Shown here: in pieces, positions 1,021-62,881 of the stretch | How the letters are laid out: each line of letters begins with the position of its first letter | Position numbering within the stretch: position 1 is the stretch's first letter | Assembly (NCBI GenBank): GCA_949317995.1 | Contig: OX439041.1 | Location: 11,730,001 to 11,794,000, forward strand | DNA: 64,000 nt | DNA from: Acholoe squamosa | Lineage: Eukaryota > Annelida > Polychaeta > Phyllodocida > Polynoidae | Reading direction: 5' to 3' | Position numbers and translations under genes: made by a program | The notes under the pieces: model-generated | The model's input: the letters and a program-made list of their open reading frames with translations, nothing else | What the model was told of the DNA's origin: nothing | Database searches by the model: none

Positions 1021-1187
1021 TAACCATGATGCATGAATGCAACCCTGGTGAGTAACTCACCAAGGCTTCAATAATGCATCATGCCCACTCTATACAGGAT
1101 TGATACCATGGGGATCACTGCTTTGGTGCATCATGCCGACAAGGAGACATTGGCGTGGAGCCGTGATGCAATCCTTGGCGGCTTAAG
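1021..1187. repeat. Cloverleaf (nested-hairpin) element, partial
   Basis: It carries hairpin A (GATGCATGAATGC ... ATAATGCATCATGCC) around a GGTGAGTAACTCACC loop. The half of hairpin B that follows keeps only TTTGGTGCATCATGCCGAC. The left TTAA end is degenerate. It lies in the intron between the last two proposed T-box exons. Confidence 0.8.
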
Positions 1188-1700
1188 GTTATGGTACGTT
1201 ATACTCCACCAGCCGCTCCTCCATTGGACTCCATTAATCAGCAATAATTAAAATAGGTTTCACCTATCTAGAGCAACAACGCTAATATAGATTATGGATT
1301 TTGGAGAGGAAAATTTCAGGATTATGAATTTGCTTAGTGTTGGGGCGGGGGACACATGAGGGGCTTTCTTTCATACGTTAATGTTAAAGGTGGTGAAGCA
1401 AGCCCTCAAATTAAATCCTTGGACTTGCAAGCAAAGCCATACATGTACCCGCCTTATCCCATATAGGGGTGTTTTCTCTGCTTTACAACTCAAAGCGGCA
1501 CTTTTGGAATGATGAGTGCCGCGTAATTCCCATAATGCCCGGCTTTAGCCAGCCTATCTCCATCTACCTGGGGCTCAGGTGAGGCGAGGGTCATGGCTTA
1601 GTCTGGGATGATCCCTTGTTTTAGTGGCACCGGTTGAGATCAGCGTTTACTATTCCCAGGTTAATCTCAGCTGCCCGCGGCTAATCCTGGCTCCTATGTA

Positions 1701-1872
1701 TTAACCCTTTATGGACCACTGATGCAGGAGTGCAGCATGCTCATGCGCCATGATGCACCAATTAAACACTTCATTTGGGGCATCATGCCGACCATCCATG
1801 GGAGTTTCAGCCACAAAGCGTTGACATGATGCCAAGGCTGCATCCATGCATCTTGACGACCAATTGGCACCC
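1701..1872. repeat. Cloverleaf element, diverged
   Basis: It begins TTAACCCTTTATGGACC, the expected terminus. Hairpin B (GATGCACCAATT ... GGGGCATCATGCCGACC) precedes a decayed hairpin A (GCTGCATCCATGCATC), so this copy is in B-A order. The right terminus is lost. Confidence 0.8.
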
Positions 1873-2023
1873 ATACAAAGAGTTACCACCAATCCCATAA
1901 CCTCAGTTGGCCTTAGCTACCAGGGGGGCTTTTCTTGAGCTGTAAAAACTTGAGAAATGACCTCAAACATTGCTTGAATATAATGTGAATTATGACCCTG
2001 AGGATGTGACATTTTTTATTTAC

Positions 2024-2094
2024 CTTTGTCGTCATTGTGATCTGATGACGAGTCCAACGTGCTGAGAGGACGCTTCATGTGCAGTCTGTGCTCC
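2024..2094 (-). CDS. T-box gene exon following the DNA-binding domain
   Basis: The acceptor TTTTGTTTCTCAG and donor GTAAAT bound a 71-bp exon that starts in phase 2 (one base completes the AG|G arginine codon from the 3864-3931 exon) and ends in phase 1. It encodes EHRLHMKRPLSTLDSSSDHN followed by DDK. A basic patch (R..HMKR) directly after the T-box, then a serine/aspartate-rich acidic stretch, is usual at this point in Tbx2/3- and Tbx6-type proteins. There the basic residues can contribute to nuclear import; that role is inferred. Exact phase continuity with the preceding exon is the main support. Confidence 0.87.
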
Positions 2095-3863
2095 CTGAGA
2101 AACAAAACATAACCTACCATTAGTCACCATACTACACAAAACCAATCAGTAAGGCTGTAAAAACACTGGAAGGGCCAATACAGCATGAGTATGTCATGCC
2201 CATTGGTGGGAATGGTGCTGGTGATTTACCCATCCATGTACAAAGCTAACCACCCTACTGGGTCAATACTCCATCAATAGTTCTCAAATAATCCACCATT
2301 GTAGTTTTAATGCATTGGTTTAATACATGGCAACACTCCATTATTACAAGAGTGAAAAGTAGAAGTTATTTCATTCCATTACCATACAATCATAATCTTG
2401 TATAGGCCTACATTATAGGGCAATGTTTTAAGAATGATTTCGAAGAAAACACACACACAAAAAAAAAACAACAACATTGATATCATGATAGCTGAGTTGT
2501 TCCAATTAGCAGTGTTAATTAATGGCGTTGGGGGCCAATTTAAAGGGTCATAGTCAGCGTTCCGCCTTACAAAGAGCCGTAGGAGACACCGACCGTAGCA
2601 CTCCTCACCCACTGTGTCAATGCCCCAGGCAACATAGTCCCTTCCGGCAGCCACCGGAAGTGCTCTCAGACGCAGGGTGCGCGCGCAGACAGCGGCACTC
2701 ATTGCTAATAGGGGGCGCTACGGTCGACACTACAGCCTAATGGTCTACTTGTGTGGCCACAAGAGGGCGCCTCTTCCCCTCCAAGGTCAATGTCAAGGAC
2801 ACTGAAGGTGAAGGTCAAGGGAACGCTGCGGATGAGTTTGATCATTTGGTGATACGGGAATTTGAACTGTGACCTTTCCTGTGGCTCCCCAAGTGAACTG
2901 AGCAAATTGTGGTATTAAATCATTGATACCTGTTTTAGATGAGTTTTTCTTATAAAATGGTAACTTTTTTTGTTGTATTTCTTTTTAGAATTGAATAATG
3001 GTCAATGCTGCAGTTTGCACTGAGAGTAAAAAAATGCACAGTAGCTAAAATCTCAAAGGAATTTGTTTTGAACATATTGTCTTCCCTAAGAAGGCACAAT
3101 GCTGATGTCAATGTGACATTTGCCTATCCTGATTTCATTTATGTGTATGTGTTCACAAATGAATGTATGTAACATAAAGATAATAATCTACAAAAACGAC
3201 GACGACATCAAGAAGAACGACAACAAGAAATAAGAACTGAAGGTTAAATAAGGATGCTCACATGTTTGTGTTGGAATGGAGCCCTTGCCGACCGCCACCT
3301 CCGGGGCTGCTAGGGCAAAACACAGAACATGTAGAGCACCCATCACATGGGGAACAGAGTATAGTAACACAGTGTAGGAAATGAAGTATAGAAAAACATA
3401 GTATGTAGAATATAGGTGCTGCAGACAGTGTCTTAATCCTGTGAGGACCGCTAATTATAGCATGAGAGCATCATGCCCATTGGCCAGCATGATGCACCAA
3501 TGAAACCCTTCTTTAGAGCATCACCACATTGAAGCACTGCTGAGTCCGCTCATCAGCACTTCTATGTATCCTGACGACAAATGGATATGATGCACTAGTG
3601 AATTAGTGGGCCTAAAAGGGATGAAATGCACAGTCTGCCACAGAAAGGAAACTTATAACTTATAATAGGTTACAGAGAGAAATGAGACAGATGTCACAAT
3701 AGATACTAACTTAACATCATCAACCCAATATGAATGTAAAATAAAACAACAAATAAAATATGGTCAAATCAATATGAAATGCTTAACTTAATGTTATTTT
3801 TTTGGCCTAGTCAGAAAGAGGTTTTCTACCATGGTCATCTTTATAGTTGTAAATTTTACTCAC
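2095..3863. other. T-box intron
   Basis: No coding exon recognised. It contains a CpG-rich patch (about 2520-2740), one cloverleaf copy at 3434-3621 and a short GAC/AAC-rich simple stretch near 3190-3235. Confidence 0.6.
3434..3621. repeat. Cloverleaf element, diverged
   Basis: The outer-stem piece GAGGACCGCTAAT and the internal GAGCATCATGCCCATTGG, GCATGATGCACCAATGAA and GCTCATCAGCACTTC are recognisable. The stems are heavily substituted and both terminal TTAA motifs are weak, so this is an old copy. Confidence 0.7.
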
Positions 3864-5018: not shown

Positions 5019-5070
5019 CTGCTGGGGGCAACAAGAGTAGTCTGGTGAGACACCTTCATTACTGTTTCAA

Positions 5071-5212
5071 GGATAATGCACGAGTGCATCATGTGTCATG
5101 TCCATTGGTCGGCATGATGCACACATGAAGTGCTGGTGAGACTGCTCGCCAGCACTTCATTAGTGCATCATGCCAACCCTCCGGATGTGTATCAAAATTC
5201 GGCATGAGGCAT
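5071..5212. repeat. Cloverleaf element, half copy with intact hairpin B
   Basis: The outer-stem fragment GCACGAGTGCATCATG is followed by GGTCGGCATGATGC and a near-perfect B hairpin: GAAGTGCTGGTGAG ... CTCGCCAGCACTTC, closing with GTGCATCATGCCAACC. The A half has been lost; only ATTCGGCATGAGGC remains. Confidence 0.85.
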
Positions 5213-7420
5213 GTTCCATATATTTATGAATTTATTCCTGAGCTGACCCAAACAAAACCACCAATTTCGTATACTACTACCAAAGACTGAAAGACCGTGT
5301 CAACAGCGCCATCCTCCCGGGACCGCCAGCGCCTAACTCCGGGCAACCCCAGCCCTTCTCCTGGAGGGAGGAGGGAGGGATGATGGCGGAGTCTGGTTCG
5401 TGACGGGCGGCGACGACAGCGGTCGGCGAGCCTTCACACGCCGGGCGTCGATCCTCACACACCGGGAGATCCTGCTGACGCCCCCATCCCCATCCGCCAC
5501 CCCCAGGCCCTCCATGCAGTTCTCCCCCAAGCCGGCTCACTCTATACACTACTCACCAATGGAGATTTCTCTGATAGTATACCCCCCCCCAGCCCCAAAC
5601 AACAACACCACAAGCCCCTGCCCTCTTCCCCCCAGTTCCCCATCCACCACCGTTAGCTGCGGATTGACTCTACCTCCCCCCCCCCCCACCACCCCCTGTG
5701 CTGCTGTCTCCTGGAGCTTATGACTAGATATGGAGTGGGTTAGACCCGGTGATAAATCAAACTCCCTAGTTGTATCCTCTACAAGCCTTCTTAGTTCTAG
5801 ACGAGAAAAAAAAACACTCATTACGAGCTGGGGTATTTAGAAAAAAATAAAGAGATGATCTCAAACCGAAGGTTCGTCGATCACTGATTTTGGCCTATTA
5901 GATGCATATTACTTTCATTGCATTTCTGCATGTGTTTCTGTTTTCTCTTATATTTTCAGGTCAGAAAAAAATGCATTTTACAAGGTTGTAAAACAAGTCT
6001 CAATACGTCCTCAATCTCAGTTATTAAGTGAAATTAGTTGAGCATAAAAGATAGCCCATTGTAGTACCCACGGGCAGTCCTTTTTGCTTTCCTTCTCCCC
6101 AAATTGTCATCCACTACAATGGTCCGTCAATGTACTGTGTTTGTCGTGGGGTGGGGGTGGAAGGGGGTCCTTCCTCTCCCCCTCAATCGTCCCAGTATAT
6201 CCGGCTAAATCGTTGTGTCAACTCCGCCCGGTCCCGCCCACCCCACCAACTCCCCTCACGGCCTCCATATCAATTTGTACACGGATCTACCGGATCCGGA
6301 AATGATCCGTACCACGCCCCCTCCCGGCCGCATGAGATAACTCGTCTTTTGTGTCCTGCCTCACGAGGGGGGTGTATGGGGGGGGGGCTAGATAGGAGAG
6401 GGGAGTCTAGACTGACTAGAGAGGGAAACACACTGAAATGGACCATCGTCAACAATTTCTATCGTGTAGTCTTAGAAAGAGTCTATTGTTTATAGTTCGG
6501 GGATGATATTACTTCGATATAGCTACATGTACTTTTGTGTGTTTTTTTTCACCATCTAGATATTAAATTGGCTAGTACTGTATGCTAGTACTCTCCAAAA
6601 TCTATTCACCAATTCATTGACCGGAATTAGCCGAGCACTGTTCTAGCCACTGCCAGTACATGTGTATTCGCAAAGTCTAAGTAGTATAAGGGAAGTGTCT
6701 ATGGACTCTGGTATAGTCACTAGTGTACTGAACAATTTTGTGTACGCCATGAAACTTCAATGATTCATGTTAATTTATTATCATATTTTCAAAAACCAGA
6801 ACTACCTCTGACCAATGAAATGAATAAACAATAGCCCTGAAGGAACAGGCATGATCAGTTTGCAGCAGTTTCGATTTACATAAAATTCTCATAGGAAGTA
6901 GTATAAGGAAAGTGGCCACAGTTTCTGGTATTTTTCCAATGGCTATACTTATTTTGCCGAATTTAGTCTCGTATTTAGACATGGGAATGATCATAACAGC
7001 AGCCTTATTTCTAAAACAAACAGAATATGGCGGTGACCTTAGGTTACCCGGGCCGGAAGTACTATACAGACAGACCGGAAGACGCTGCCGCACGGCATGC
7101 CGGGGCATTATTTCGCTGGTGCCGTTCTGCTGTAGGTCATTAATCTTTGAGTGGACTGCTGACGCCGGGGGACCAGCTACCGGCTGTTTGACGACCCCTG
7201 CGTCTGATGAGACCGGACATGACCTGCCCCTCCCCCAGCGGCCGTCGCTAGGTGACAGGTCGAGCTGCGTGCGCAACCGGAAACGGTGTCCTTCCGTCAA
7301 CCACCGCCGGTGCTGATAACACTGAGGTATAGTCAGAGCCGGGAACCAGCGACAGCGCCGCCAGCGCCACCCGACGGGACGCAGCGGAATCAGATCAACT
7401 CTTTGAAGCCCACGGAGTGT

Positions 7421-7631
7421 TTTTATGCAGCATGCCAATTTATCATCATGATGCATGAATGCAGAGAGTAACTTCCCAGGACTGCATTCATGCATCATGC
7501 AGACCCTACAGGATTGATACATCCCGATGGGGTTGGCATGATGCATCAATGCAGTGCTAATACCACATTGGTGCATCATGACGACGAAGGAGCATGAAAC
7601 TGGAGGCATCATGCGGCCCTTTAAAGCTTAA
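7421..7631. repeat. Cloverleaf element, nearly full length (A-B order)
   Basis: Hairpin A (ATGATGCATGAATGCAG ... CTGCATTCATGCATCATGC) is followed by the central arm ACCCTACAGGATTGATAC and then hairpin B (GATGCATCAATGCAGTGC ... CATTGGTGCATCATGACGAC). The right end reads GGCATCATGCGGCCCTTTAA. It supplies much of the long minus-strand open frame here, which I do not regard as a gene. Confidence 0.88.
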
Positions 7632-9055: not shown

Positions 9056-9241
9056 ACCAACCCAACCTTCTTTGTCACCATAGTAAAATTTAGGAAAAAT
9101 AAAAGAGAAATAGGAGGGACAATGAACTAATAAAGAGATAAGAAATCTATGTCCTTTACACATTTATTGAATTATCAGAATCATAATAAAAGAAAGAATA
9201 AAAAAATATAGGAGCCTATAAGACTGATGAGCTCTACTCAC

Positions 9242-9509
9242 GTGTCCGTTCTGGTCCAGGTTGTTATTGGTGAGTTTAAGTTTGTGGAAGCAGACAGGTT
9301 GTTTCATCCAGTGAGCCCCAGAGGCGGGAGAGTCTGGGTGGATGTAGAGCCTACCCGGCATGTGAGGCTCAGCCTTACCCGTGACCACCCACTCCGAGTT
9401 ATGATACTTATAACGGCAGTCGTCCAATGGCACGATGTCCATCAACAGAATGTACTTGGCGTGGGGGTCCAGGCCCTCCAGAGACACCTTGAACGTCGGG
9501 AACATCCGC
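9242..9509 (-). CDS. T-box domain exon 2 (core of the DNA-binding domain)
   Basis: This 268-bp exon starts with the last base of an arginine codon and encodes [20 protein letters not shown], then [60 protein letters not shown] and [14 protein letters not shown], the KYILLMDIV strand, the [11 protein letters not shown] loop and FHKLKLTNN are diagnostic T-box motifs; the Arg of RMFP and the HPDSPA region contact DNA or the dimer partner in known structures. [16 protein letters not shown] and GAHWM resemble Tbx4/5, while [10 protein letters not shown] and [11 protein letters not shown] resemble Tbx2/3. The acceptor is CCAATTTCCAG and the donor GTGAGT. The class is Tbx2/3/4/5-like, with a Tbx6/16-type assignment not excluded. 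Confidence 0.98.
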
Positions 9510-10242
9510 CTGGAAATTGGGGATAAATTAAAGCTTTAAATTAGACCTGCCGAAGTGAATCAATATGTCTATTTTTTGGTTTGAAGGAGAAATAAATTGA
9601 TGCATTTAGCAATAATTCTTTTTGTTTCTACCCAATATTTTCTATTTCGGTTAAACTTTTTATTTTTTTAGGTGGCGCATCTATCGAGCTAGTATATCTT
9701 AATTTTCACATAGTATATAGAACAAATCTATTTAAATCTGTATACATGTGTATGCCCCTGGAATTATACTGTATGTCTATTTTTATGTGGTTAATTATAG
9801 ATGTATATTACACATGTTTCCCGCCATATTCCTTCACCAAAGGCCTTAGTATTTGAATCAAATTGAACAGAGATAGATGCATATATAGACCCTTTAAAGC
9901 AATTAGGGCTCATGGAGAAAAACACGATAAACAAATTAAAGGTAATTCCTAATCAAACCATAACACCTAGTTCTACCAACTCCTTTATTTATATGTAGGC
10001 CTAAGTATAGGCCTAAGGCCTAATTAGGGATTAACCCTTTGTGAGCTAAATTCAGGGTAAATTCAGACTGTGGTCACATGCCTACCTTACCCCTGTACCC
10101 TTTCATGTGGTAAACCGACCCCTGCACCATCCAATCAACAATTTCCTGGTCCCTTTGTCAAAACCTTTGTCAAGGTGGACAAAATCAACCAGAAATTGAA
10201 GTTGTAAGACCCTATCCTGAATACGTAATAAAGGATCACAGC

Positions 10243-11324: not shown

Positions 11325-11545
11325 TTAACCCTTTGAGGTCGACATGATGTTGCAGGAGTAAATGTTGATACTCCTGGTTTTAAGACGCAAAAAAATCAAT
11401 GCAGGTGATGGCCTTACACATTGTTTCATCATGCAGCCCCCCCTCCCCCCGTGTATGTATACATGGACGAAAATATGGCGTCAGCGTGATGCATGGATGC
11501 AGAGCTCGTGAGTAACTCGACACTGCTGCATTCATGTTGTCCTTA
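11325..11545. repeat. Cloverleaf element, badly broken
   Basis: TTAACCCTTTGAGGTCGACA and TGATGTTGCAGGAGT mark the left outer stem. GTGATGCATGGATGCAG ... CTGCTGCATTCATG is a remnant of hairpin A. About 100 bases between them are unrelated or degraded. Confidence 0.6.
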
Positions 11546-11599: not shown

Positions 11600-11830
11600 T
11601 ACCAGAGGCCGCCCAGGTGCAAGCCCACACCATGACCTCGGATGACCTTGGCGGGCAGGTAAGTGCCCGTATGTGTCATGGCGGCCCTGTGAGGTGTAGC
11701 ACCCAAGGTGAGCAGTACTGCCACCTAGTGGGACGCCCAGGTGTGGTCAGGTGGGCGCCTGGAGTGCACCTCCAGGTGCTGGGGTCGGCAGGTAAACGTG
11801 TCCAGGTAGGCACATCGAGCCTTAACCCTC
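11600..11830. promoter_or_regulatory. CAGGTG (E-box) cluster
   Basis: About 230 bp contain CCCAGGTGC, CCCAGGTGT, TCAGGTGGG, CTCCAGGTGC and several CAGGTA/AGGTGT variants on one strand. CAGGTG is the binding core of Snail/Zeb and class I bHLH factors, and AGGTGT is a T-box half-site core. The cluster ends at the next cloverleaf element. A regulatory role is inferred from density only. Confidence 0.3.
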
Positions 11831-12069
11831 TAAGGACCGCATGATGCCTCCATGTCCATACTCCTTGGTCGGAATGATGCACCAATATAGTGCTGGAGTT
11901 CTACTCTCAAGCACTGCATTGTAGCATCATGCCAACAATTTTGGATTGTTTAAGTCCCATAGGGTCGGCATGATGCATGAATGTAGCCCTGGTTAGTCGT
12001 TCCCCATGGCTACATTCATGCATCATGCCGACCCTACTAGAGGTCTAGTGCAATCTGTGGCCCTTAAGG
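11822..12069. repeat. Cloverleaf element, near full length (B-A order)
   Basis: Left end TTAACCCTCTAAGGACCGC. Hairpin B (GATGCACCAATATAGTGC ... GCACTGCATTGTAGCATC) comes first, then the central stem CCCATAGGGTCGGCATGATG, then hairpin A (GCATGAATGTAGCCCTGG ... GGCTACATTCATGCATCATG). The right end is GTGGCCCTTAAGG. The order is reversed relative to 7421-7631, so both orientations occur. Confidence 0.92.
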
Positions 12070-13340: not shown

Positions 13341-14767
13341 GCGATGCGGAAACGACGACGTAGGAGGTGGAGAAGGATCGGGAGAATAGGGGAAGCGGGG
13401 GGGGGGGGGGTGAAGTGATCCGAGATGTGAGGGGGAACTAGTGCCTTGGTAAGTGAATAAAACGTGGGTTTTGTGTTTATCTGTGCAGTGTGGGACCTCC
13501 CCTCATTACAAGCCCAAGCAGGGTGTGACGGGCGGTCTAGGTTACACATGGAGAGGCGGCAGTGGCGGGGGTTGGGGCGGCACTCCCGGCGTGAAGGGCG
13601 GCACCTTGACGTGCCTTGGTTCCAGCGTCAAACTGTATAAAGAGCCACTCCAGGCGGCCTTCAGTCCCTCCCACGGCGTCCAACGGTGGGGCACATCTAG
13701 CGCCGAGTTTCACAGGTCTGTGGACGCCCTGTGAGCACTCTCTACCTCTCACCATAATGCCACACACACCCAGTCCTTCCCTTCACTGTATCGCATGTAG
13801 TCCAGAGCCACTCTATGCACCGCCCAGCCCTTGTCCCAATTACCCTCGTATACTTAACCGCCCACGTTTCACCAGGGTAACAATAAAACTAAAGAAGTAA
13901 AAAAAGAAAAAAAGTGGAGACAGTGAGAGGACTAGAAAAATGCCATAGAAAAAAATGACCGGGGAAAACAGAGCAAAGTACTAGTGGGAAAACATGGACG
14001 TGTCGCAAAAAAAAAACAGCGCCAGCCGTATGACGGCAGTGGTCCTAGTCACGTGAGTGGGGTTGTAGAGCAGCGTCCCATTGTGTGGGGTGTCCCATAG
14101 GGGTGCAGCGGGTCCCTAGGGGTGGGCTGGAGGTGTGGAGTACGTTAGATGTATCTCAGGCACCACCTGCTACCATGGAGGGCCATACAGTCTACCCTTC
14201 TTCCTGATTCAGTGATCCAAATGTTAAAATGTCTGTTTGCTGTGAATTATGGAGGCTTTTAAGAATAGCGGTGATAATTCATTTGCTAACAGCATATGAC
14301 AGAGACTGACAGAGACTATAACTTAGATGTTATCCTATATTGACAGCATCTATAAGTTGCTGTCAGACAGTCCCACTCTAGCTTCCAGTATTAGTTTAGT
14401 CACTGTCAGTTCCTTCCTACCCTGTGCCCATGACACTAACCATCCTAACTTCCACCCCACTAACCCCCATTTGCCTAAACAGCCTTTAACATTTGACCCC
14501 AAAGCCTCAAAGGAAGACCTTCTAAAATGGCCCTAAGCCTGAAGACCACTTTGCCCAATGGACTGTAACTGCACTGCAGGAATTTGTACCGGCTCAGGTC
14601 ACTGCTATGATCCGCCATTAGCCGACCACAATGCCCTCTGGCGACACTTCCGTTAGCGCATGCGCAGACAGGATGGGTCCCGGTATACCCAGAGGGAGGC
14701 TGATCGGATCATGAAGTGAGTTTTAATACCCAACTCTTGGGCTAAACCTGTTTGGGCGGTTTAGTGG

Positions 14768-14970
14768 TTTAATGTCTTTCACCTATTGGTCGTCATGATG
14801 AATGAATGAAGCCCTAACTCGCCAGGGCTGCATTCATGCATCATGCCGACCATGACACACACCACAATGCATGATCATGATGCCAGACTCGCCAGCACTG
14901 CATTGGCGCATCATGTCGACATGTAAGAAGCATGAACTTAGGTGGATTTTCCATTCCCTGAAGTGTTAAA
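14768..14970. repeat. Cloverleaf element (A-B order)
   Basis: The stem piece CACCTATTGGTCGTCATGAT leads into hairpin A (GAATGAATGAAGCCCTAACT ... GGGCTGCATTCATGCATCAT). A shortened B arm (AGACTCGCCAGCACTGCATT) follows. The right end GTTAAAAGG is degenerate. Confidence 0.85.
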
Positions 14971-15106: not shown

Positions 15107-15271
15107 TAGGAGCCATTGTGGCCTCTAGTCTATTTCCTTCTTATGTATACTAATTACTGCAATACAGTGGCACAATGGTCGCAATTCTTGTGGTAAATCT
15201 ACAGTTTTGTTATTGACGCTTCAAAATGAGTCAAATTCCCGAGGTCACCTTCACGATGCGGGTCAACAAAC

Positions 15272-15321
15272 GTGCTGGCGAGTTACTCACCTACGCAACA
15301 TTCATGTATCATGATGACCAA
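15272..15321. repeat. Cloverleaf element, fragment
   Basis: CTGGCGAGTTACTCACC followed by ACATTCATGTATCATGATGA. Only the distal side of a hairpin A remains. Confidence 0.5.
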
Positions 15322-18134
15322 AAGGTTTCCTAGGTTATGCAGATGCCAAATCAGATTGGTGAAAATGGGAGCTCATTAGAGGTGCCTGAATCTAAGCCCA
15401 CTTTCCATATACTACTTCGATATACATGTACTACTAATACTTCGGTGCCTTATGTAGCCTATATATGCCCGCCTATGTGGTTCTTTTGTAGCTTCTACAA
15501 ACTGTATGCGACACATTATATACGGTTGTTTTATGCCTGAATACAACATGAAAAGCAAATCATGTGTGTTTACAGGATAGAAGTCTACTGATAGATATAC
15601 AAAGAAGAAGAGAATCAACAATGGCTCGTTATAATTAAGCTGACGATGAACACGCTACATTAGCTCACAGGTTGACTATAACGGGGATGGTGTGACTATT
15701 CATACGGCTAATTTCTCACTCCATACCCCCGGGTAAGACCATGGAGACCCTGTGTGTGAGTGTGTGTGGGGGGTGGGGGACAATAGGACGCAGCATAACG
15801 TCGCCTTCTGTGACGCACGCACGATTAGACCGTTACTGATAATTGTCCAACAGATGTTAGCGTTACGTTTGTTAACGTTACGCCGCCCATGCCGCACTGC
15901 TCGGCTAGTCGCACCTTGCCGTCATACACACTTCCGCCCACATCTGTTCCCGGCGTGTGTGCTTGTGGACAGGTAGGGTACCAGCGAAATTGATGAACAA
16001 ACTAAGGATATAATCCATTCATGCCCCTAAATTCCTATTCAGAAAACCCTCTGTCTCCCAGCCCTCTCCCTTTCTCGGTTTTCTCTCTTTTTATACTTAT
16101 GCTTTCCCTCTTCCCTTACCCTTGCTTCCTCTATTGTACCCTCTCAATTTCTGAATTTCATTTTCTACCCCCTTCCCCCATTCTCTCGATCCCCTTTTAA
16201 CCCATTCTTTCCCAAATATATGTGGGAACGTCCAGATCGTATACAGTAGTGGCAATAATGAATCACAGCCATTTCAGATTGCTTTCATGGGGAATAATGG
16301 GGCATTATGGGAACATAACGGCAGAACAAGCATACCTATGGTACTACTGGTAGTTATTAGAAGGTTGGGGGGGGGGCAGGCCACTGCCGGCTCTGGTAGG
16401 TAGCTCTCACGGACTGCGTCCGCCGTACGCCGGTAGGCGCGCGCCGGGTGACGTCCGCCCACCCACACGCCGCCCGGATAGACTTTCATCTATTGAGGTT
16501 CTTAAAGCGGCCCCGGTACAATACAAATGTAAACTAATTAGCGCAAATATGCCGGGCCGCTTAGCACACTGAGCACACAACTGGACATGAAAGGGTTCGT
16601 TGGCAGGGGAGGGGGCGTTTTGTTGAGCTGGAACTGGGGGGAGGTTTGTGTGTCCGCGCGCCGATAACGCCTGTGGCGGTGTGTGAGTAGTATACTGCAA
16701 GTGGGGTATAAACGTCAGAGCCACAGGACAGAGAGTGTTTTGTCTTTTGTATATTTCACACGGAATCTTTATGAAAAAAAAGAAGAACTTCAGCACAAGG
16801 GCATATTAGAGAAGATTATAGTAATGGGTGTAACTCTACAGTGCAATAACTACACATGGATTGAAGTAACTTGTGAGAAAGAAAAAAAAAACAGACTTGG
16901 AAATGGGTTAAATATCGATCAAATAGCAATATTGTTCAGCATGAAACTGTGGCTTATGGAGCCTTATGGGTGTGTGTTGAGGGGGGGGGGAGTTGGGAAT
17001 GTGGACTGTTGTCCAGTAATCCTATAACGACTCACCCTGCCAACCCTTGGTCAAACACTCTTATACCCCCCCCCCTCCATTTACCGCTCTCAGGGGGTGG
17101 TGTTAGCGTGTTGATACGTCGCCTGTGTGTGTATGGAGAGGGCGGGGGGCTCTGCTCTCTCTAACCCCCCCCCCCTGCCCATGCTCCATCACAGTTTACC
17201 GACAGAGGGCGCACAGGTGACGATCCAAGATAATCCCAGGTGCACCATAATCGGCCTACATCCTCACGGTCAACGAGCCTAAACCTCCCCGCCCGGCCTA
17301 GGTCCACACGATCAACGAGCCTAGCCTGCCCCGCCTGGGCCTAAATACACAAGAGTCAAAGAGTCTAAATCTTACAGTACACTGATACTGTACCCAGGGA
17401 GCTCTTAGAGAAAGTTAAACTATAATGCCTTTAAGGGTGTATTAAATAATTGTACCGAGAAAAATGTAATACTACTTTAAAACTATCATTTATCTCCTTC
17501 ACAGGAAGAAATCCTTTTTGTGTGTGGTAGATTATAAATGGAGACATCTGGGTTCAAATAAAGACAAAAGTCAAACATATTTCTTGGCAAGCTCTTGAAC
17601 CTGCACAGCTACACTTGAAGTCAAAGGTACATTATTCCTTCCAAACCTACTGCCACAAGTATTACAAAATATCTAGGCTTCCAATATGTATACACGTTTG
17701 TATAAGATAGAACACATAGTCCAATGTCTGTCCTTTTCATATTTGACTCAGAGGTTTTTCTATTGAGCCAAATTCAGGAAGATGTGACAGAAAAAAAGAA
17801 ATTTTCTGCATCGCCATGGAAACAAATAAGACGCATTGGAGCCAGAACATGGATGATCGTAGGGCTCAGAATGCATGATGAGAAAATCCCCGGGGAAAAT
17901 CTATATATGTGAGTGGGTGTGGGACATTTAGACAAAGGGTCCAGATTTGTTTATACACCATTAAGATTAGGTCCTGGTGGTGTTTCATTAACTCCAGTTG
18001 TGAATGATTGGTTTGTAATTAGCTACTGCAGACTCCTTCCCAGAGCAACGACTTCAATGTCCTTCAGGGGGAAAGGGGGGCTCCATAATAGAGGGGGGGG
18101 TGGGTGTTTAAGAAGCAATTCTCTGGTACCTTGA

Positions 18135-24673: not shown

Positions 24674-24899
24674 TTAACCCTTTAAGGACAGCACGATGTA
24701 TTAAAAAATTTCATGGTGATTTTTCTCCTCGCCAGCAATGCATTGGTGCATCATGGTGGGTGTTTAGAAGTGTATCAACCCATACAATTACGATACGTGA
24801 ATGCAGTATTGTGGATCCATTAATAAGGGCTGCATTTTATGCGATTATGTGCACACCTAGTGAATTGATGTATACTACAACTGTATATATAAGGGTTAA
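24674..24899. repeat. Cloverleaf element, old full-length copy
   Basis: TTAACCCTTTAAGGACAGCA at the left and AAGGGTTAA at the right frame 226 bp. Inside, GCAATGCATTGGTGCATCAT and GTGAATGCAGTATTG ... AGGGCTGCATTTTATGC are remnants of B and A. The length between TTAA ends matches better copies. Confidence 0.75.
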
Positions 24900-28800: not shown

Positions 28801-28928
28801 TGCCTTGCTTACAGTAAGTAGGGAGTCATGTGTATGTGGTAAAATGGGAAAGAAATGTGTACAGATCCTCTAGCTCTATGTTGAAAAAAAACAGAAGAAA
28901 AAAGAATCAGAAATATTTGTTCACTCAC

Positions 28929-29100
28929 CGTCCGGTCTTGGTGATGATCATCTCGGTGCCGAGGGAGTGAAACTTGAGCCAGAGGTCACGTGTCTCGAGG
29001 CTGATCTTGATGTTTTTGTCCCTCTGCTCCCTCTGGGGTGGCGGCAACATCCTCTTGGGGTCGTGTCCCATGTGAAAGCCGCCGAACTGCTGGCTCTGAC
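28929..29100 (-). CDS. T-box domain exon 1 (start of the DNA-binding domain)
   Basis: The 172-bp form starts at the acceptor CACCATTCCTCCAG, phase 1, and reads [30 protein letters not shown], then [20 protein letters not shown] and [30 protein letters not shown] is the N-terminal T-box motif, and WLKFH is typical of Tbx4/5. The donor is CG|GTGAGT, leaving two bases of the second arginine codon, completed by the 9242-9509 exon. The acceptor phase matches the cassette exons at 33753 and 34640, so this form joins them in frame. The same frame stays open upstream to an ATG at 29332 (next entry). Confidence 0.95.
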
Positions 29101-29332
29101 CTGGAGGAATGGTGGTGGATGTGGAGAGGTTAGATACATGGGGGTAGGTTGTAGGAGTACTGGATGAGGATGTACTGGAGGACGGGGGAGGGGACGGCGT
29201 CGGCGTCATGATGGCGGTATGGAGCGCGGCGGCAGCGCGGTATGCAGGGTGGTAGTGGTAGGGTGAGGGGTGGTGCGGACCACCATATCCGGTCACCGCT
29301 GCCGGAAACATATCCAGCACCCCTAGCGACAT
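28929..29332 (-). CDS. Alternative long first exon of the T-box gene
   Basis: If the internal acceptor is not used, the frame extends upstream without a stop to ATG at 29332: [18 protein letters not shown], then [20 protein letters not shown] and a Pro/Ser/Thr-rich tract before GQSQQF. Histidine/tyrosine/alanine- and serine/proline-rich tails of this kind are common at T-box protein N termini. The 5' flank (29341-30060) is CpG-rich. The exon is therefore a candidate alternative promoter/start giving a different N terminus on the same DNA-binding domain. Low sequence complexity means the open frame alone is weak evidence. Confidence 0.5.
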
Positions 29333-29340
29333 GACGACCT

Positions 29341-30060
29341 CACCGCACGACGTGCAGCGCTAAGAATTAATATAATCCGGAGTCGTGTCCTTGTCGCGTC
29401 CTGCAAAATTTATGGCGACTCCAATTGAATCATGGCTGGTAGCCTGTAATCGTGAATAAAGTCATAATAATCCACATCCGACTTAGACGTGCGTCACTAC
29501 CGGTCGCGACAAGGGCATTTCCGGTAGCTCAGCTATTACATAGTATCTTCATCTATGTCAGCAGCATACTGGGTGTACATTATGATATCACTGATATAGC
29601 AGCAATGGCGGCGGTGGTGTCAGTGATGGGCCTGGTCGCGGCGCTGTGCTGGTGACGCTGTATAGCGCTGTCGATGACGGTGACGGGCGCGGGGCGGCGT
29701 GTCCTGTCTGCTCTCTGATGGAGAGCCGCGTCCGCCGTCCGTCGCCGCCCGCGTCAACTGAACATCCTGCCTCCAGCCCAGGTTCCACGGAGAGGGAACG
29801 TGTAGCAGGGGTGGGGAGTGGGGGTGGAGATGAAATGGGCAGGTCGGCAGGAGAAGGCAGGCGGTCGGCGCTGCCCCCGGCTATGTTTATGTTGCTGACG
29901 ACTCTATTACCCGGCGCGGTGGGGCGGCGAATCCCGTCCGGCCCGGCAACCCCCAGATTGGGTGCGCGCCGGGCGACGCGGCCCTAAGCCCCCGGGATCA
30001 TGGCCGACGCCGACGGGCTCCCGGAGGCTCATTTATTCACATAAATTGCCGCGCGTAATC
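29341..30060. promoter_or_regulatory. CpG-rich putative promoter for the long first exon
   Basis: This is the most CpG-dense stretch near the T-box exons. A CCAAT word on the plus strand near 29417 and a CAATGGCGGCGG (YY1-like) word near 29603 lie within 300 bp upstream of the ATG at 29332. The open frames here change strand and frame and look compositional. Confidence 0.4.

Positions 30061-32624: not shown

Positions 32625-32625
<1 letters not shown>

Positions 32626-32708
<83 letters not shown>
32626..32708 (+). repeat. (GA)n microsatellite
   Basis: About 40 GA units, flanked by further GA-rich sequence to 32800. It produces long SLSLSLS/RERERE-type spurious frames. Confidence 0.98.
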
Positions 32709-32712
<4 letters not shown>

Positions 32713-33086
32713 GAGAGAGGACAGGCAGAGATAGAGACAAAGAGAAACTGAGAGAAACAGAGGCAGGGGCAGAGCAAAGAAGGCAGAGCGAGGAAGGGGC
32801 CCATCAAACGTTAAGGAAGGGGAGGGGGGTAGGTAGGAGGGTCGGAGACGGTTGGGTTGACCGGGAATTAGCGGCAGCTTACCCCGGACACGTGCCGGAT
32901 ACCAGCACAAGCCCGGGGCGACCAGCGCATTGAGATTCATAAGCGGCACTCGGCGGGAACCGTGAAAGGGGCTGGAAACATGTCGTTTGCTCGTCGTAGT
33001 GTCATCAGCGGTCACCAGATGGGGTGTAACAACGGGGTGGGGTGGTTCTATGGGTGGTAAAAGAGGGCTGTGGGCTCCTTTGACTA

Positions 33087-33344
33087 TTAACCCTATAAGT
33101 ACTGAATAGTGTACGACTCCCAATGGCTAAATCCATGCGTCATGCATGCCGACAGATAGCAGTTGGGAGTCGTGTACTCGCCAGGGGCTGCAGTCGTGCA
33201 GCATCGGGTTGATACACTCCCGAAGGATCGGCATGATGCGCCAATGAAGTGCTTTACGTAGGATTGCCAGCATTGCATCGGTGCATCATGCCGACGGCAA
33301 AGGAACAGGGGCCTCGAGGCATTACACGGGCATGACAGGGTTAA
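33087..33344. repeat. Cloverleaf element, full-length 258-bp reference copy
   Basis: Bounded by TTAACCCTATAAGTACTG and GGCATGACAGGGTTAA, with TTAA at both ends. Layout: left outer stem, arm A (here modified: an 11-base ACGACTCCCAA pairs with TTGGGAGTCGT, then TCGCCAGGGGCTGCAGTC), central arm GATACACTCCCGAAGGATCG, arm B (GCGCCAATGAAGTGCTTTAC ... GCCAGCATTGCATCGGTGCA), CATCATGCCGACGGC and right outer stem. Across copies the plan is outer stem, hairpin A (ATGAATGCAGCCCTGGCGAG), central arm (GGGTCGGCATGATGC), hairpin B (ACCAATGAAGTGCTGGCGAG), outer stem. A strand folds as a cloverleaf. No coding capacity. TTAA ends recall piggyBac-type target sites; this is inferred. Confidence 0.9.
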
Positions 33345-44607: not shown

Positions 44608-44763
44608 AATACCTCCAGGCTCGTGTTCCTTTGTTGTGGTAATGCACCAATGTAGTGCTTGCTAATACTCCAACACTGCATCGGTGCATCATGTCGACCT
44701 TTTGATTTAGGAGTCCTAAAGCAAAGCCAAAGGATGCATTCACATATATCATGCTGACAAAAC
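44608..44763. repeat. Cloverleaf element, partial
   Basis: AATGCACCAATGTAGTGCTT ... CAACACTGCATCGGTGCATC (hairpin B) and AGGATGCATTCACATATATC (remnant of A). Confidence 0.7.
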
Positions 44764-51336: not shown

Positions 51337-51803
51337 CATAAGCCAACTTGTTACAATGTGTTGATCAAATCTCATTCTGTTTTGTGAGCTCTAGCTTATT
51401 CCAAGGATAGAGATGTGAAAAAAATAAAATGCTTCCAGCATTTTATCCATGTTAACAAACACCTTATTAGACCAGGTTAGTGGCTCTATCTGTTATGTAA
51501 TAAATCAGACTGGTACTCTATGGTGAAAAGAGCTCTGCATTTGGGCACCTGACTATTCAGCCCTGCCACCTGGGGAAATTATTTGAAACTATTTAGCTGA
51601 CTGTTGTCCCTTCCCACCAAAAAACGGACAGCAGCTGAGACGTAAGTCCTTAGCTGTATGTATCCAAGCTCACCTCTCACCAAAATGAATGGCACTGGAT
51701 ATGAGGAAAGGCGGTGTAGAATTGTCTGAGACAGAGGTTAGAGAAGGGTATTCCAACATTTTTATTACATGGAAAGGAGAGAGAGACAGAGAGACAGAGA
51801 GGC

Positions 51804-51834
<31 letters not shown>

Positions 51835-52006
51835 CAGAGACAGACAGAGAGGAAGAGACAGAGAGACAGACAGAAAGAAGGGAATGGGGGATGGAGTAAA
51901 AGCTGCAATTTAATTTTTTCACATCTCTATCCTTGGAATTAGCACGGCTAGAGCTCACAAAACAGAATGAGATTTAACCAACACATTGTAACAAGTGGGC
52001 TTATGG
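51337..52006. mobile_element. 670-bp element with about 90-bp inverted arms
   Basis: The left arm CATAAGCCAACTTGTTACAA ... GGATAGAGATGTGAAAAAA matches the right arm TTTTTTCACATCTCTATCC ... TTGTAACAAGTGGGCTTATG. The roughly 480-bp centre holds a GA-rich microsatellite and no frame. Confidence 0.88.
51778..51880 (+). repeat. GA/GACA-rich simple repeat
   Basis: Degenerate GAGA/GACAGA tract between the arms of 51337-52006. Confidence 0.9.
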
Positions 52007-53193: not shown

Positions 53194-53592
53194 TTAACTC
53201 TGTAAGGGTCAGATAGTGATTTAATGCATCATACCCATTGGTCGTCATGATGCAAGAATGCAGACCTGGTGAGTAACTCGCCAGGGCTACATTCATGCAT
53301 CATGCCAACCCTACAGGATTGATAGACTCCAGAGGATCCTTCAGCATGGTACCGCGATAAAGTGCTGGCGAGTCTGCAATTCTATTGGTGCATCATTACC
53401 CATGGGCATGATGCACTCCTGTGTCAGCGACCCTTGTAGGGCTGCATTCATGCATCATGCTGACTGTCCCCGAAGGATCTACCTGATGCACGAATGCAGT
53501 GCTGGCGAGTAGGATCACCAGCATTGCATTAGTGCATCATGCCTAACAGTGAAGATGGAAATGGAGGCATCATGTAGCCATTTGAGGTTTAA
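53194..53592. repeat. Cloverleaf element, compound copy
   Basis: TTAACTCTGTAAGGGTCAGA at the left. Hairpin A, a reduced B, then an extra outer-stem piece (CATGGGCATGATGCACTCCT, GTGTCAGCGACCC), another A half (GGGCTGCATTCATGCATCAT) and a full B (GCACGAATGCAGTGCTGGCG ... CACCAGCATTGCATTAGTGC). The end is TTTGAGGTTTAAG. It looks like two units fused head to tail with the join retained. Confidence 0.85.
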
Positions 53593-53821: not shown

Positions 53822-54217
53822 CATTGGCGGATCCAGGATTTGGAAAAGGAGGGGGCGCGGCCCACAAGGAGGGGCACACCCCCTAATTTTGGACAAATTT
53901 TGGGTTCCAAAATATGTAGTTAAACTCATAAGTACTTGGGGGTCTAGATGGGGGGTTCCAATGTCCCTTGTCGATTTTAAGAAAAGCCCATGTCAAATGT
54001 AACTAAACTTGTATTTTCCTTTGTCCTTGTCCCTAAGCACCATGCCACATGTTGATTTTAAGAAAAGTCTATGTCCCCTGTCACTATCTTCTTTGCCCCA
54101 TGTCCTTGTCCCTAAAAGGTGCATGTCCTTTGTCGATTTTAAGAAAAGGCCATGCCACACTGTCGATTTTATGGGTCTAGGGCGCCCACCCCCCTCACCC
54201 CTCTAAATCCGCCACTG
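53822..54217. mobile_element. GGCGGATCCAGG element with internal tandem repeats
   Basis: The left end ATTGGCGGATCCAGGATTTG and right end CTAAATCCGCCACTG are inverted. Inside, GTCGATTTTAAGAAAAG-like units occur at about 53959, 54052 and 54135, with a truncated one at 54162, alternating with CCATGTCC words. Confidence 0.85.
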
Positions 54218-55148: not shown

Positions 55149-55556
55149 TTAACTCTATGAGGGCCGCTAACGCACTACTGTATCATTACCCATTGGTCGT
55201 CATGATGCATGAATGCAGTCCTTGTCATGGACGCATTAATGCATCATGACGACCCTAATGAGTTAATAAACTCCTGGAGGGTCAGCACGATGCCCCAAAG
55301 AAGTGCTGACTCACTAGCACATTATTTTGTGCATCGTGTGCCTTTATAGCCATGATGCACCAATGAAGTGCTCACCCTGTATCATTATGCCAACCTTCCG
55401 ACAGTGTACCAACACTGCAAAAGAGTCATGATGCATGAATGCAGCACTGGCGAGTTACTCACTAGGCCTGTATCAATGGAGCATAATTACATGTATAACA
55501 ACCAACGGTCATGGTTCTTTATTGCACTATGCGGTCCTTAACGGATTAAAGGGTTA
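55149..55556. repeat. Cloverleaf element, compound copy
   Basis: TTAACTCTATGAGGGCCGCT at the left and CGGTCCTTAACGG plus ATTAAAGGGTTAG at the right enclose 408 bp with A-, B-, B- and A-type arms in turn. It reads as two copies fused, possibly by recombination between units. Confidence 0.85.
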
Positions 55557-55807: not shown

Positions 55808-56453
55808 GTGAGGTTATTGCATCAATGCATCATGCCCATGGGTCGTCATGATGCATGAATGCAGCCATGGTGAGTAACTCGCCAGGACTGCACCCATGCA
55901 TCATAAAGACACTGCAGAGTTTATATACACCTGTAAGGTGGGCATGATGCTCCAATGAAGTACTCTTAAGCAGGTTATCTGCACTTCATTGGTGCATGAT
56001 AAGACCAAAAAAAAAATGAAGTTGTGTTTCCAGTTACATGCCTCAAATATCTAGGGTCGGTAGGTCGGATTTTTTTTTCTAAATTTTTTTTTTGATTTGT
56101 ATAGAAATTTATGGGCAGACATGTTGGATCCTATGATTTTACAATAGAAATATGAAAAACATTAGAAATGTGAAGCACATGTAAAAGATATGAATGACTG
56201 TTATGAACTGTATACCAATAGATGAGGACCTAGATAAACTCCATGAAAAGTTGGTGAAAAAATATGAAAATTACGGGCAAAATGACTAAGATTTGCCAAA
56301 ATACCTCAAAAATTCACAAAATAAAAAAGAAATAATTCCAGGATTGGCCCTGTTTTGCTAGGGTCGTTCGGGTAACTGGAAACAAACCTTTTTTTAGGCT
56401 TAATGACCAATGGGTATGATCCACTCCTACATCAGCGGTCCTTACAGGGTTGA
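55808..56453. repeat. Cloverleaf element interrupted by a GTTTCC MITE
   Basis: A arm (GCATGAATGCAGCCATGGTG ... CCAGGACTGCACCCATGCAT), central TAAGGTGGGCATGATG, B arm (CTCCAATGAAGTACTC ... CTGCACTTCATTGGTGCATG). After the MITE (56000-56402) the right outer stem resumes: CCAATGGGTATGATCCACTC, CAGCGGTCCTTACAGGGTT. Confidence 0.9.
56000..56402. mobile_element. GTTTCC-type MITE, copy 4 (nested)
   Basis: TAAGACCAAAAAAAAAATGA plus GTGTTTCCAGTTACATG at the left, and GGTAACTGGAAACAAACC plus TTTTTTTAGGCTTA at the right. It sits inside the cloverleaf copy at 55808-56453, so it is younger than that copy. Confidence 0.92.
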
Positions 56454-57265: not shown

Positions 57266-57752
57266 GGGCCTAAAAAAAGGTTTGATTCCAGTTACCCGAC
57301 TGACCGTAGCAAAACAGGGCTGACCCTGCAATTTCTTTTTTATTTTGGGAATTTTTTTTTATATTTTTGGGGGAATTTTTGGCATTTTTCCCATAATCTT
57401 CAAAATATTTCATCAATTTTTTTGCGCAGCTTACCTAGATCCTCATCTATTGGTATACAGTTCATAACAGTCATTCTCAGCTAAGTCACTGCTTAGGGTG
57501 TGTGTGTGTGTGTGGGGGGGGGGGGTGGGGGGTCTTTGGGTTCCTCTATATGTTACATTCAAAAACAGTGACAAGGGGGGTGAGTGGGTCCTGAAAAATG
57601 CCTAAATACCGGTGACATAATTGTTGAACGCTCCCCAACATGTCTGCCAATACCTTTCTATACAAAATAAATAAATTAAAAAAAAAGACCTACTGACCCT
57701 GGACATTTGAGTCATGTAACTGGAAACGCACATCATTTTTTTTGTGGCCCTG
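57266..57752. mobile_element. GTTTCC-type MITE, copy 5
   Basis: GGGCCTAAAAAAAGG, TTTGATTCCAGTTACCCGAC and AGCAAAACAGGGCTGACCC at the left; CATGTAACTGGAAACGC and TTTTTTTTGTGGCCC at the right. 487 bp, with a G11 run and GT repeat inside. Confidence 0.87.
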
Positions 57753-60014: not shown

Positions 60015-60185
60015 TGGCCATTGCTGGAGCTTGTTCCCAGCAAGTTCTACTGATAAGACCTATCAGATGGGTACCAGTTGGCCCTCGAAGGACCGCAGTG
60101 AATAGATTGGGGTTCTCTCATTGGCTAATAGTTAAACCTGCTAAGTCCGTATAGATCTCGGACCACCATAGCGGCCCGCAGTGAC
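60015..60185 (+). mobile_element. TGGCYACTAG MITE, decayed copy 3
   Basis: GTGGCCATTGCTGGAGCTTG, TACTGATAAGACCTATCAGA and ATGGGTACCAG align with 40040-40243. The distal half is poor. Confidence 0.55.
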
Positions 60186-61943
60186 GGCAATCATACTCGA
60201 GGCGTTCGGGCAGCGGTTTTCTAACCATATGCAGTGCATTGTGGGTGGGGCTGACCTCGAACGCTAACTACACAACCTTAGCTTGTTCCCTCCACCCCCT
60301 TCCACCCCAGCCAGGTCTGGCTAGGTACCAGTCACTAACTATGCTTGGGAGGGTAGTAAGTTGACTCAGGGATCAACATTGACCCACATGGGGAGGACCA
60401 ATAGGGGGTGGCCTTACAAACCAGCATTGATCACTCGGCCATACCACGAACGCAACGACAGTAAATGCAGGCACTTCAGAGATGGAGGCCCCTGATTGGT
60501 CTATGTTAGTGTGTGGAAATTATTGCCAGCTTTGCTATTAGGCGTCAGATAAATCACTGAACTGTGCTGATTCATTGAATATAAATTGTGGTTCACTGGC
60601 CTTATGGTTAGGCACTGTTAGGTGGCTTTGAAAAAGCAGTGACCACTGTGAAAACTGGATTGGTCAAACCTATATTTTTTTTCCGTCTCAGATCAAGGAT
60701 AAAACAATGTTCTAAAGATTTCCGGTCATTTTGAATGATTTGAATCATCGTAGACAGGTTTTATCAGCGGTTGAGCTATAATATAGTGAGAAATGTTTTG
60801 GTGGTCCAAGACATTAAGTGGCGATAGGACAGTAAGCCCGAGTATAGCTTGGAAATACTCAAAAGGCTATTTTTTTAGTTGAGATATATCATTACCAAAA
60901 AAGATAGAAATTTGCATGAAAAATATAGAAAACATGGAAAATCCAGGCTGTAGGGGTTTTGGTTTAATTGTGGACTTCATTGAATCTGACTTACAGGTCT
61001 TTCTATGCATATTACCACAGTTATAGACTGGTGGGGATGAGTCAATTCAAGGATTTGTGGGCAAAACAGGTTAATTGATCCCTCTCTAAAAAAAAACAAA
61101 CTATATTTCAGTACGGTTTTCATCAATTTCCCATGATATTTCAGGACCCCATGTAAAATCTAGGGATCAAAGCTCAAAAAAAGCATTTGTTTCATGTAGG
61201 AGAACAATTGGACGAAATCTATGCTGAATTTCAGTGTCCTAGGCTGTATATGTCTTGAGGAAACAGCTTACACATGTATGAGCTGTCGGTGAGTGAAAAC
61301 AGGCTGAAAGAGAGACCAATTTTCAGGGTTACGAGGGCATCTATTACAATCATTTTCTATGGTTTAGGGGCTTATAAGGCACCTTAAAAGTTACAATTTG
61401 ATGAAGTACACCTAAAGGTTTGTATAGGTGGTGTTTTGGTAAGTTATAGTCCTGAACCCCTCCTTATACAGCGGTAATGCCCCCTGGTGTGATTTTGTAC
61501 AACCATGAGATTTAGTTCAACCTTCTCCACTAGGTGGTGCAACAAGATTGCCAGACTGTGTTACCAGGTAGAGATATGTAGCCTGATAATGTAGGGATTA
61601 TGGCTATGATAAGGAGCTTTTTAAGGATCGATACTCATTTTTTCAGTTTATATATCAAAGCACTAGATTGCTGATGAATCCTGATGATACGTGAAACTGT
61701 TCATTGGCTGATCATCACCGCTACATAGAATATCAGGCTACATATTTCTAAAACCCCCAAATATATGCAGACGCCAATTACTTGTACAGCTTATGGACCT
61801 TTTATTTCATGATGTTTAACCAAACAAAAGATGACAAAGCACATGTCATCAGGTGTGTTGGATCACTAACAGCGAGTTCAGAATAGATGCTTGAAATATT
61901 GTCTGAAATTACCGGTACTAACACCTACTGAATATGCATAACA

Positions 61944-62067
61944 AGAAGCTTCCTTATCCACATAAGTAAATCGTAGAAGCTTCCTTATCCACATAAGTAA
62001 ATCATAGAAGCTTCCTTATCCACATAAGTAAATCGTAGAAGCTTCCTTATCCACATAAGTAAATCGT
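61944..62067 (+). repeat. 31-bp tandem repeat, four copies
   Basis: The unit begins AGAAGCTTCCTTATCCACAT and ends AAGTAAATCGT. Four head-to-tail copies are nearly identical (one G-to-A change), which suggests recent expansion. Confidence 0.97.
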
Positions 62068-62671
62068 AGAATATATCACTTAAGAGTACTGGGTTATAAA
62101 AGTTCTCGAAATATTCCTTTTATTATCAGGGACTGTCAGACAAGAGCAAACCAGGCACCTTTAGTATTTTATCATACCGTAAATGCTGCATAATCATGAG
62201 CGCAGTATAGAAGTTATGGTTTCCAGAGAATGAAACACACTGCTTGTTGAAGTAAGAAATGTGGAAAACATTTCAGACTTTTCAGAAAACTTTAATGAAG
62301 CAATGGGTATATGAAACAGCCCCTATACCGGTATTATAATGGAGTGATCAAAATATAAAGTCAATCACTGTATTATCATTATAATATAAAGAAATATTCT
62401 TATTAAACCATAATTTCATGGATTTGTATTCAAAATAAAATAGTTTTGGTTTTGCAATGTTAAACCACATTTTAAGCTAATGTGTTATGTCAAACAATCG
62501 TTACAAGTTGTAACGCCTCAATATGTTACTACAGCGAGCAGTTAACAATTTTAATAATAATGGGTGATATCGTGAAGAATTGAGGTACAAAAATAATAGA
62601 CCAATACAGATTAAATTGTTTAAAAACAACATGCTCTTTTAGTATTTTCTTTCCTAAAGAACTTAAAATAA

Positions 62672-62881
62672 GGTACCATGATGCCCGTGATGCACCAATG
62701 AACTGCTGGTGAGTCTGTTTGCCAGCACTTTGTTGGAGCATCATGCCGACCCTGTGGGAGTGTAACGACTCCACCGGGTAGGCATGATGCATGAATGCAG
62801 CCATGGTGCGTGAATCACCATGGCTGCATTCATGCATCGTGACGATCCATGGGCATGATGCAACAGTTCATTAAAGGGTCA
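62672..62881. repeat. Cloverleaf element abutting the GGT stop codon (B-A order)
   Basis: Hairpin B (ACCAATGAACTGCTGGTGAG ... GCCAGCACTTTGTTGGAGCA), central GACTCCACCGGGTAGGCATG, then a strong A arm (ATGAATGCAGCCATGGTG ... CACCATGGCTGCATTCATGC). The terminus ATTAAAGGGTCAA ends one base from the minus-strand stop codon at 62883-62885, so the element forms the start of the 3' untranslated region. Confidence 0.92.

Follow-up and report, generated by a model that had tools for sequence, protein, structure and literature searches.

Repeat copies around a T-box gene

The 64-kb stretch of Acholoe squamosa DNA analyzed here (G000:C7:11730001-11794000, hereafter the window) comes from a genome searched as 1.48 Gb in 63 contigs. 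It encloses a T-box gene on the minus strand (PF00907 in 2 of 4 scanned frames) together with many copies of a short dispersed repeat, the subject of this report. The repeat is ~258 bp long and non-coding, is present in high copy number, and has TTAA-CCCT inverted termini within terminal inverted repeats (TIRs) of ~50 bp, as a miniature inverted-repeat transposable element (MITE) does. It carries internal hairpin arms of two types, A and B. Most likely the repeat is a piggyBac-type MITE family without a transposase of its own, in which the two arms arose as copies of each other and have since diverged.

With refined seeds, nhmmer recovered 36 copies covering 5864 b (9.2%) of the window, and the first seed gave 39 merged matches over 6269 b (9.8%), which agrees with the original prediction of about 35 copies occupying about a tenth of the sequence. 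Word searches of the window were equally far from expectation, with 26 matches to an arm-A 18-mer at up to 3 mismatches (0.04 expected) and 52 matches to GGTCGGCATGATGC at up to 2 mismatches (0.22 expected), and a 200-kb Markov sequence used as a control gave zero matches to the element. The element reads almost alike on both strands, so the strand call of a single copy varies with the seed: the refined seeds called 21 copies plus and 15 minus, the first seed 16 plus and 23 minus. The refined-seed copies are listed below with strand and nhmmer bit score.

987..1149 (+): copy, arm A; 58.5 bits; arm profile
1701..1869 (-): copy, TTAA end kept; 71.3 bits; TTAACCCTTTATGGACC
2163..2342 (+): weak old copy; 20.6 bits
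3434..3622 (+): copy, both ends recognizable; 57.4 bits; ends
5072..5213 (-): copy, arm B; 78.8 bits; arm profile
7397..7630 (+): near full-length copy; 115.4 bits
8780..8872 (+): weak fragment; 21.7 bits
10246..10436 (+): copy A-B; 78.1 bits; arms
11326..11536 (-): copy, arm A; 40.5 bits; arm
11823..12069 (-): near full-length copy B-A, fold z -11.6; 108 bits; fold and arms
14744..14937 (+): copy A-B; 76.1 bits; arms
15255..15332 (-): fragment, arm A; 22.3 bits
18130..18295 (-): copy, arm A; 50.6 bits
18946..19048 (-): fragment, arm A; 27.9 bits
21050..21196 (-): copy, arm A; 80.1 bits
23293..23407 (+): fragment; 23.2 bits
24150..24364 (+): copy A-B, TTAA right end; 142.8 bits; ends and arms
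24727..24836 (-): fragment, arm B; 27 bits
26402..26603 (-): copy, arm B; 134.2 bits
27801..27873 (-): fragment, arm A; 31.1 bits
28231..28387 (+): old copy, TTAA left end; 27 bits
30337..30422 (+): weak fragment; 18.6 bits
31175..31389 (+): copy with both ends, arm B (profile) and shortened arm A (by eye), fold z -8.0; 111.1 bits
31569..31753 (-): copy; 55.6 bits
33088..33296 (+): copy, TTAA at both ends, whole span 33087-33344; 64.2 bits
35912..36089 (+): copy, arm B; 72.4 bits
40437..40651 (-): copy B-A; 130.1 bits; arms
44621..44702 (-): fragment, arm B; 28.4 bits
48332..48453 (+): fragment, arm A; 61.4 bits
53195..53441 (+): copy, top score of the window; 149.5 bits
53438..53555 (+): fragment, arm B, adjoining the 53195..53441 copy; 53.6 bits
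55150..55366 (+): first half of four-arm element A-B-B-A (55149-55549), A arms by profile, B arms by eye; 104.2 bits
55383..55548 (+): second half of the same four-arm element (55149-55549); 32.5 bits
55813..56006 (+): copy A-B, without right end; 118.2 bits; arms
56399..56451 (+): lone terminus; 26.1 bits
62679..62876 (-): copy B-A; 123.3 bits; arms

Element structure and predicted fold

Each terminus consists of TTAA, the tip CCCTTTAARGGCCGC (bp 1-15), and the palindrome TGATGCA-N4-TGCATCA (bp 16-33). The tip consensus of well-kept copies, TTAACCCTTTAARGGCCGC, corrects the tip given in the original prediction. Two end types were found, T (TGATGCA-TTAA-TGCATCA) and G (TGATGCA-GGAG-TGCATCA), either of which is followed by TGCCCATTGGTCGTCATGATGCA leading into the first arm. 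Arms A and B both open with GGTCGTCA-TGATGCA, and in arm A this module resembles the element end. The consensus arms are alike at 30 of 35 positions, a likeness reached by 0 of 2000 shuffles, and that between arm A and the TIR module was reached by 6 of 2000.

The predicted fold of a 258-nt model in A-B order consists of an outer stem and three hairpins: arm A, a central one, and arm B. Since the arm strands have GGTCGKCATGATGCA at their foot, the junction can slide, and the arm stems measure 28-29 bp in one predicted fold but 19 bp in a second. The motif GGGTCGGCATGATGC, formerly taken for a central arm, is the base of arm B, and the other arm strands have this module at their foot as well; the hairpin actually at the center is poorly preserved (pairing 0.70). 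A comparison of folding energy with shuffled sequence, suggested earlier as a check, came out far in favor of the element, with z values of -11.6, -14.9, and -8.0 for three natural copies and, among the 26 copies of the window that scored 30 bits or more, z below -3 in 20, versus 1 of 26 control segments. The best of these natural copies (L027:1174-1434) forms nearly the whole cloverleaf unaided at -92.6 kcal/mol. This well-kept copy (1175-1432 of L027) sits a few bases into an apparent intron, directly after an exon that, read by eye, we take to encode a DIS3-type exonuclease.

Arm arrangement

Arms A and B belong to one element, since their spacing is fixed and their co-occurrence exceeds random expectation. 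Across the window, a genomic sample, and 15-mer loci (both described below), 13 of 18 neighboring arm pairs lie 37 or 38 nt apart, and a B arm lies within 140 bp of 7 of the 21 A arms in the window, where random placement gives 1.4 (at most 6 in 1000 trials). One stretch that holds a satellite array (L004) was kept out of the arm-pair and architecture counts. The fixed spacing contradicts a reading of the hairpins as chance neighbors, which was rejected.

Both arm orders previously described are present in the window, as four A-B and three B-A groups. The earlier description of a single plan held in that there is one high-copy element, but the plan is not fixed. Among 22 well-kept copies whose termini were listed, 12 were A+B, 9 were B+B, and 1 was unclear, counts biased toward well-kept copies by the requirement for perfect 12-bp ends. 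Longer forms include an A-B-A run with one recognized TIR (L009:8131-8434) and the four-arm element of the window, which lies between two TIRs.

Termini and target site

Ends were picked by the 15 bases inside TTAA, blind to the four outer bases, and those four bases proved to be TTAA in 17 of 29 ends chosen in this way. Together with 412 TTAA-bounded places in the genome, this bears out the earlier claim that good copies have TTAA at both ends. The flanks of seven copies, read by eye, show no duplication beyond TTAA.

Genome-wide abundance and length classes

The 15-mer TGCAGCCCTGGCGAG occurs 4233 times exactly in the genome, and its reversed control 0 times. A sample of 20 stretches of 10 kb taken at round coordinates (200 kb) held 14 copies, or 1.1% of the sequence, all within 4 of the 20 stretches; the high copy density is a local property of the window. 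The local database excluded overlapping stretches (L003, later also L044 and L045). Median divergence from the consensus outside CpG is 0.145, and the sampled copies are decaying.

Perfect 12-bp ends stand 244-274 bp apart at 412 places in the genome, with 0 for the reversed-pattern control, and 22 of the 26 such places listed were assigned by eye to the MITE family; the other 4, of other or atypical families, were excluded by eye from the architecture counts. A pattern of two perfect 17-bp ends built on an early, slightly wrong tip consensus matched 0 places. On contig C1, the outer 30% of the chromosome holds 25 of the 33 TTAA-bounded places listed (binomial P 8e-8), with 4 of other or atypical families included among the 33.

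Counted in the same way per 31-bp length window, perfect 12-bp ends bound 94 places at 146-176 bp, 159 at 196-226 bp, 74 at 292-322 bp, and 60 at 340-370 bp. Ten places are exactly 162 bp long among 50 listed of the 94 in the shortest window, and this class probably fits an element with one hairpin unit fewer, judged by size alone. Among 50 listed of the 74 places at 292-322 bp, all bounded by TTAACCCTTTAA, 18 are exactly 320 bp long (e.g., G000:C5:16526469-16526788); by size alone, they are probably a different, younger piggyBac-type MITE. Another TTAACCCTTTAA-ended family has repeated palindromic GCATCGACTATAGTCGACACC motifs (G000:C1:42764579-42764842; L023 about 5180-5570).

Satellites of tips and arms

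The tip, arm A, and arm B all occur also in tandem form. A 38-bp satellite whose monomer resembles the transposon end adjoins piggyBac loci (L031:1-230 and L032:3150-3489) and matches the MITE tip (0 of 2000 shuffles). A 27-mer from this satellite has 3395 exact places in the genome, and among the first 31 of these, 27 of 29 neighboring spacings are multiples of 38 within 1. Arm A occurs as arrays of 12 and 6 tandem units ~77 bp apart (L004), and two B-like units stand 99 bp apart past a 38-bp array (L045).

Relationship to piggyBac

The terminal motif CCCT satisfies CC[C/T]T, the piggyBac tip motif (PMC2872659). Inward of the tip, piggyBac has a palindrome at bp 17-33 that is bound by a dimer of cysteine-rich domains (CRD) (PMC7351741). 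This palindrome is a feature of piggyBac itself and is not universal; the ends of piggyBat repeat, further inward, a unit that joins a core motif to a palindrome (PMC11707139). The MITE termini have a palindrome in nearly the same place. When 18-mers starting at bp 1-45 of each terminus were scanned, in 27 of 44 termini the most palindromic one started at bp 16 (500 sets of shuffled termini averaged 1.1 and never exceeded 5), a count that shares the bias toward well-kept copies and does not represent independent events, because the termini share descent.

The genome contains 90 PF13843 matches, none of them listed inside the window, and the best two have open frames of 486 and 443 codons with no internal stop, so piggyBac transposase has, or had until recently, a source here. 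One piggyBac copy (L033, PF13843), 2.74 kb long, bounded by TTAA, and with stops in its frame, has at its right end the palindrome GGGCCGAAAATTCGGCCC (bp 16-33, 16/18 positions). Tips similar to that of the MITE at L031 and L032 lie only inside neighboring 38-bp satellite units.

On these features, a piggyBac-class transposase supplied by another element would recognize the two ends, cut at TTAA, and reinsert at TTAA, and, by analogy with piggyBac, the tip would be contacted by its catalytic core and the palindrome by two of its cysteine-rich domains acting as a dimer. An autonomous partner would carry the MITE ends and be bounded by TTAACCCTTTAARGGCCGCTGATGCA. The cloverleaf would then probably be a geometric consequence of about six alternating site-like modules and not an RNA. 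Hairpin units have been gained, lost, and swapped, yielding A+B, B+B, A-B-A, four-arm, and probably one-arm forms, as well as tandem satellites. The arms may act as extra transposase-binding sites, and their sequence suggests that they are perhaps also copies of the end module.

Several results weigh against this reading. Arm B is not significantly like the TIR module (its likeness is reached by 155 of 2000 shuffles), and the 340-370-bp length window expected for three-arm elements shows no excess over the 292-322-bp window. Only 1 of 4 host piggyBac ends has the palindrome, as the left end of L033 and both ends of L029 are without it at bp 16-33. The MITE tip was found as an element's own end within ~1.5 kb in none of 20 piggyBac stretches taken from the 90 matches, some of which belong to one element and 18 of which were scanned again. 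The flanks of three copies were joined and used to search for empty sites; each of the three matched its own two halves alone, and for this reason TTAA is a target duplication that we infer.

Alternative explanations

The cloverleaf itself might be selected, as in a structured RNA or hairpin-precursor repeat that serves, for example, as a source of small RNA, and the strong folding, with z down to -14.9, is what such an element would show. Conservation also runs in this direction, as identity to the consensus is 0.87-0.89 in the arms versus 0.80 and 0.84 in the TIRs and 0.81 in the center, although arm identity may be inflated since copies were found largely by their arms. For 50 copies scoring 40 bits or more, Watson-Crick pairing was compared with pairing after partners had been permuted among copies. 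Arm A reached 0.833 versus 0.813 permuted (0 of 200 permutations reach this), a slight excess that could come from subfamilies, whereas no clear excess was seen in arm B (0.815 versus 0.807; 40 of 200), the outer stem (0.715 versus 0.722; 169 of 200), or the central hairpin (0.698 versus 0.704; 159 of 200). The keeping of both hairpins in old copies, as stated earlier, thus looks like passive inheritance. TIRs and TTAA ends, moreover, are features of DNA transposons, and the window has no Rfam match at gathering score and 0 tRNAs by ARAGORN, results on which a tRNA-like element, a tRNA-derived SINE, and a known RNA family were rejected. We regard a selected RNA structure as very unlikely; selection on the fold was rejected as the main cause because pairing barely exceeds permutation, and the hairpins appear to be inherited and then to decay, with no function of the fold required after insertion.

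It is likewise scarcely credible that hairpins A and B are independent repeats lying together. At the profile threshold, 23 of 30 window arm groups show one arm alone, and arms also stand alone in tandem arrays (L004), but the fixed spacing of neighboring arms, the concentration of 412 TTAA-to-TTAA places in one length window, and the presence of arms at both ends in 21 of 22 classified copies all argue for a single unit. That a different superfamily with a TTAA target, Kolobok or Sola3 for instance, moves the MITE, its CCCT ends having arisen by convergence, deserves more weight and is still improbable. Sola3 targets TTAA, and no autonomous partner with identical ends appeared among the 20 piggyBac stretches. 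Kolobok elements also have TTAA flanks, and the Kolobok/T2-MITEs of Xenopus resemble the present family in their TTAA target and their many long-lived MITE copies (PMC6004289). Their ends, however, begin AG or AGGRR and not CCCT (PMC6004289), and membership in Kolobok or T2-MITEs, the ends that this comparison covers, was rejected on that ground; the position of the palindrome, in turn, matches piggyBac. An analogy with parvovirus termini (an outer stem plus two arms) was dropped, as the TTAA and CCCT tips are like those of DNA transposons.

Comparison with known elements and wider meaning

MITEs of the piggyBac type are already known as a kind, and it is the modular make-up of the present family that is unusual. 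Close in form are the piggyBac-derived CMITEs of corals, which are short, have TTAA flanks, a CC[C/T]T tip, and an interior of unknown origin, and occur as full-sized copies also in tandem; they differ in being ~100 bp long, with TIRs of 13-14 bp and a conserved interior of 75 bases (PMC2872659), in contrast to the ~258 bp, roughly 50-bp TIRs, and long hairpin arms described here. The main text of PMC2872659 contains neither 'palindrom' nor 'secondary structure'. The family shares with piggyBac a tip followed by a palindrome and, perhaps, with piggyBat an inward repetition of the end unit, and it differs from both in a body of site-like modules in alternating orientation and in its own palindrome sequence. 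Bivalves and other animals have satellite DNAs that stem from mobile elements, and these too are short tandem arrays linked to mobile elements and dispersed in the genome, whereas the units of the MITE-related arrays resemble the tip (38 bp) or a hairpin arm (~77 bp in L004, ~99 bp in L045). In the titles and abstract openings retrieved, none names this MITE family, and by title no paper on repeats was found with the tip letters TTAACCCTTTAA.

A bolder extension, which we consider possible but rather doubtful, is that the whole body assembled itself from about six copies, in alternating order, of the palindrome-bearing unit of the end. These putative transposase-binding modules would themselves be evolutionary units that multiply as extra arms and as tandem satellites (38-bp tips, ~77-bp and 99-bp arms). 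If this were true, a DNA transposon would break into satellite families, each with a monomer resembling the transposon end, and multivalent binding could also give the MITE an edge over its autonomous partner in the competition for transposase. Up to ~400 well-kept two-ended elements (412 places less other families), together with many decayed ones, form a natural library in which the ends stay similar while the internal palindromic modules differ in number, order, and type. Such a library opens to direct test what internal transposase sites do for piggyBac-type mobility and how a transposon turns into satellite DNA.

Other features of the window

The T-box exons (PF00907) lie on the minus strand at 9164-9532 and 28925-29356. 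Simple repeats with an 8-nt register occur at 32596-32774 and 51764-51918, an 81-bp tandem repeat of 3 units at 53961-54167, and a 31-bp tandem array of ~4-5 units at 61913-62098. A separate dispersed repeat, with an A-run at its start and a GTGTTTCCAGTTACATGCCTCAAATATCTAGGGTC-like stretch, abuts the right flank of the truncated copy at 55813-56006 and is also present at 57635-57743 of the window and, elsewhere, at L008:2722-2875 and L009:9045-9130.

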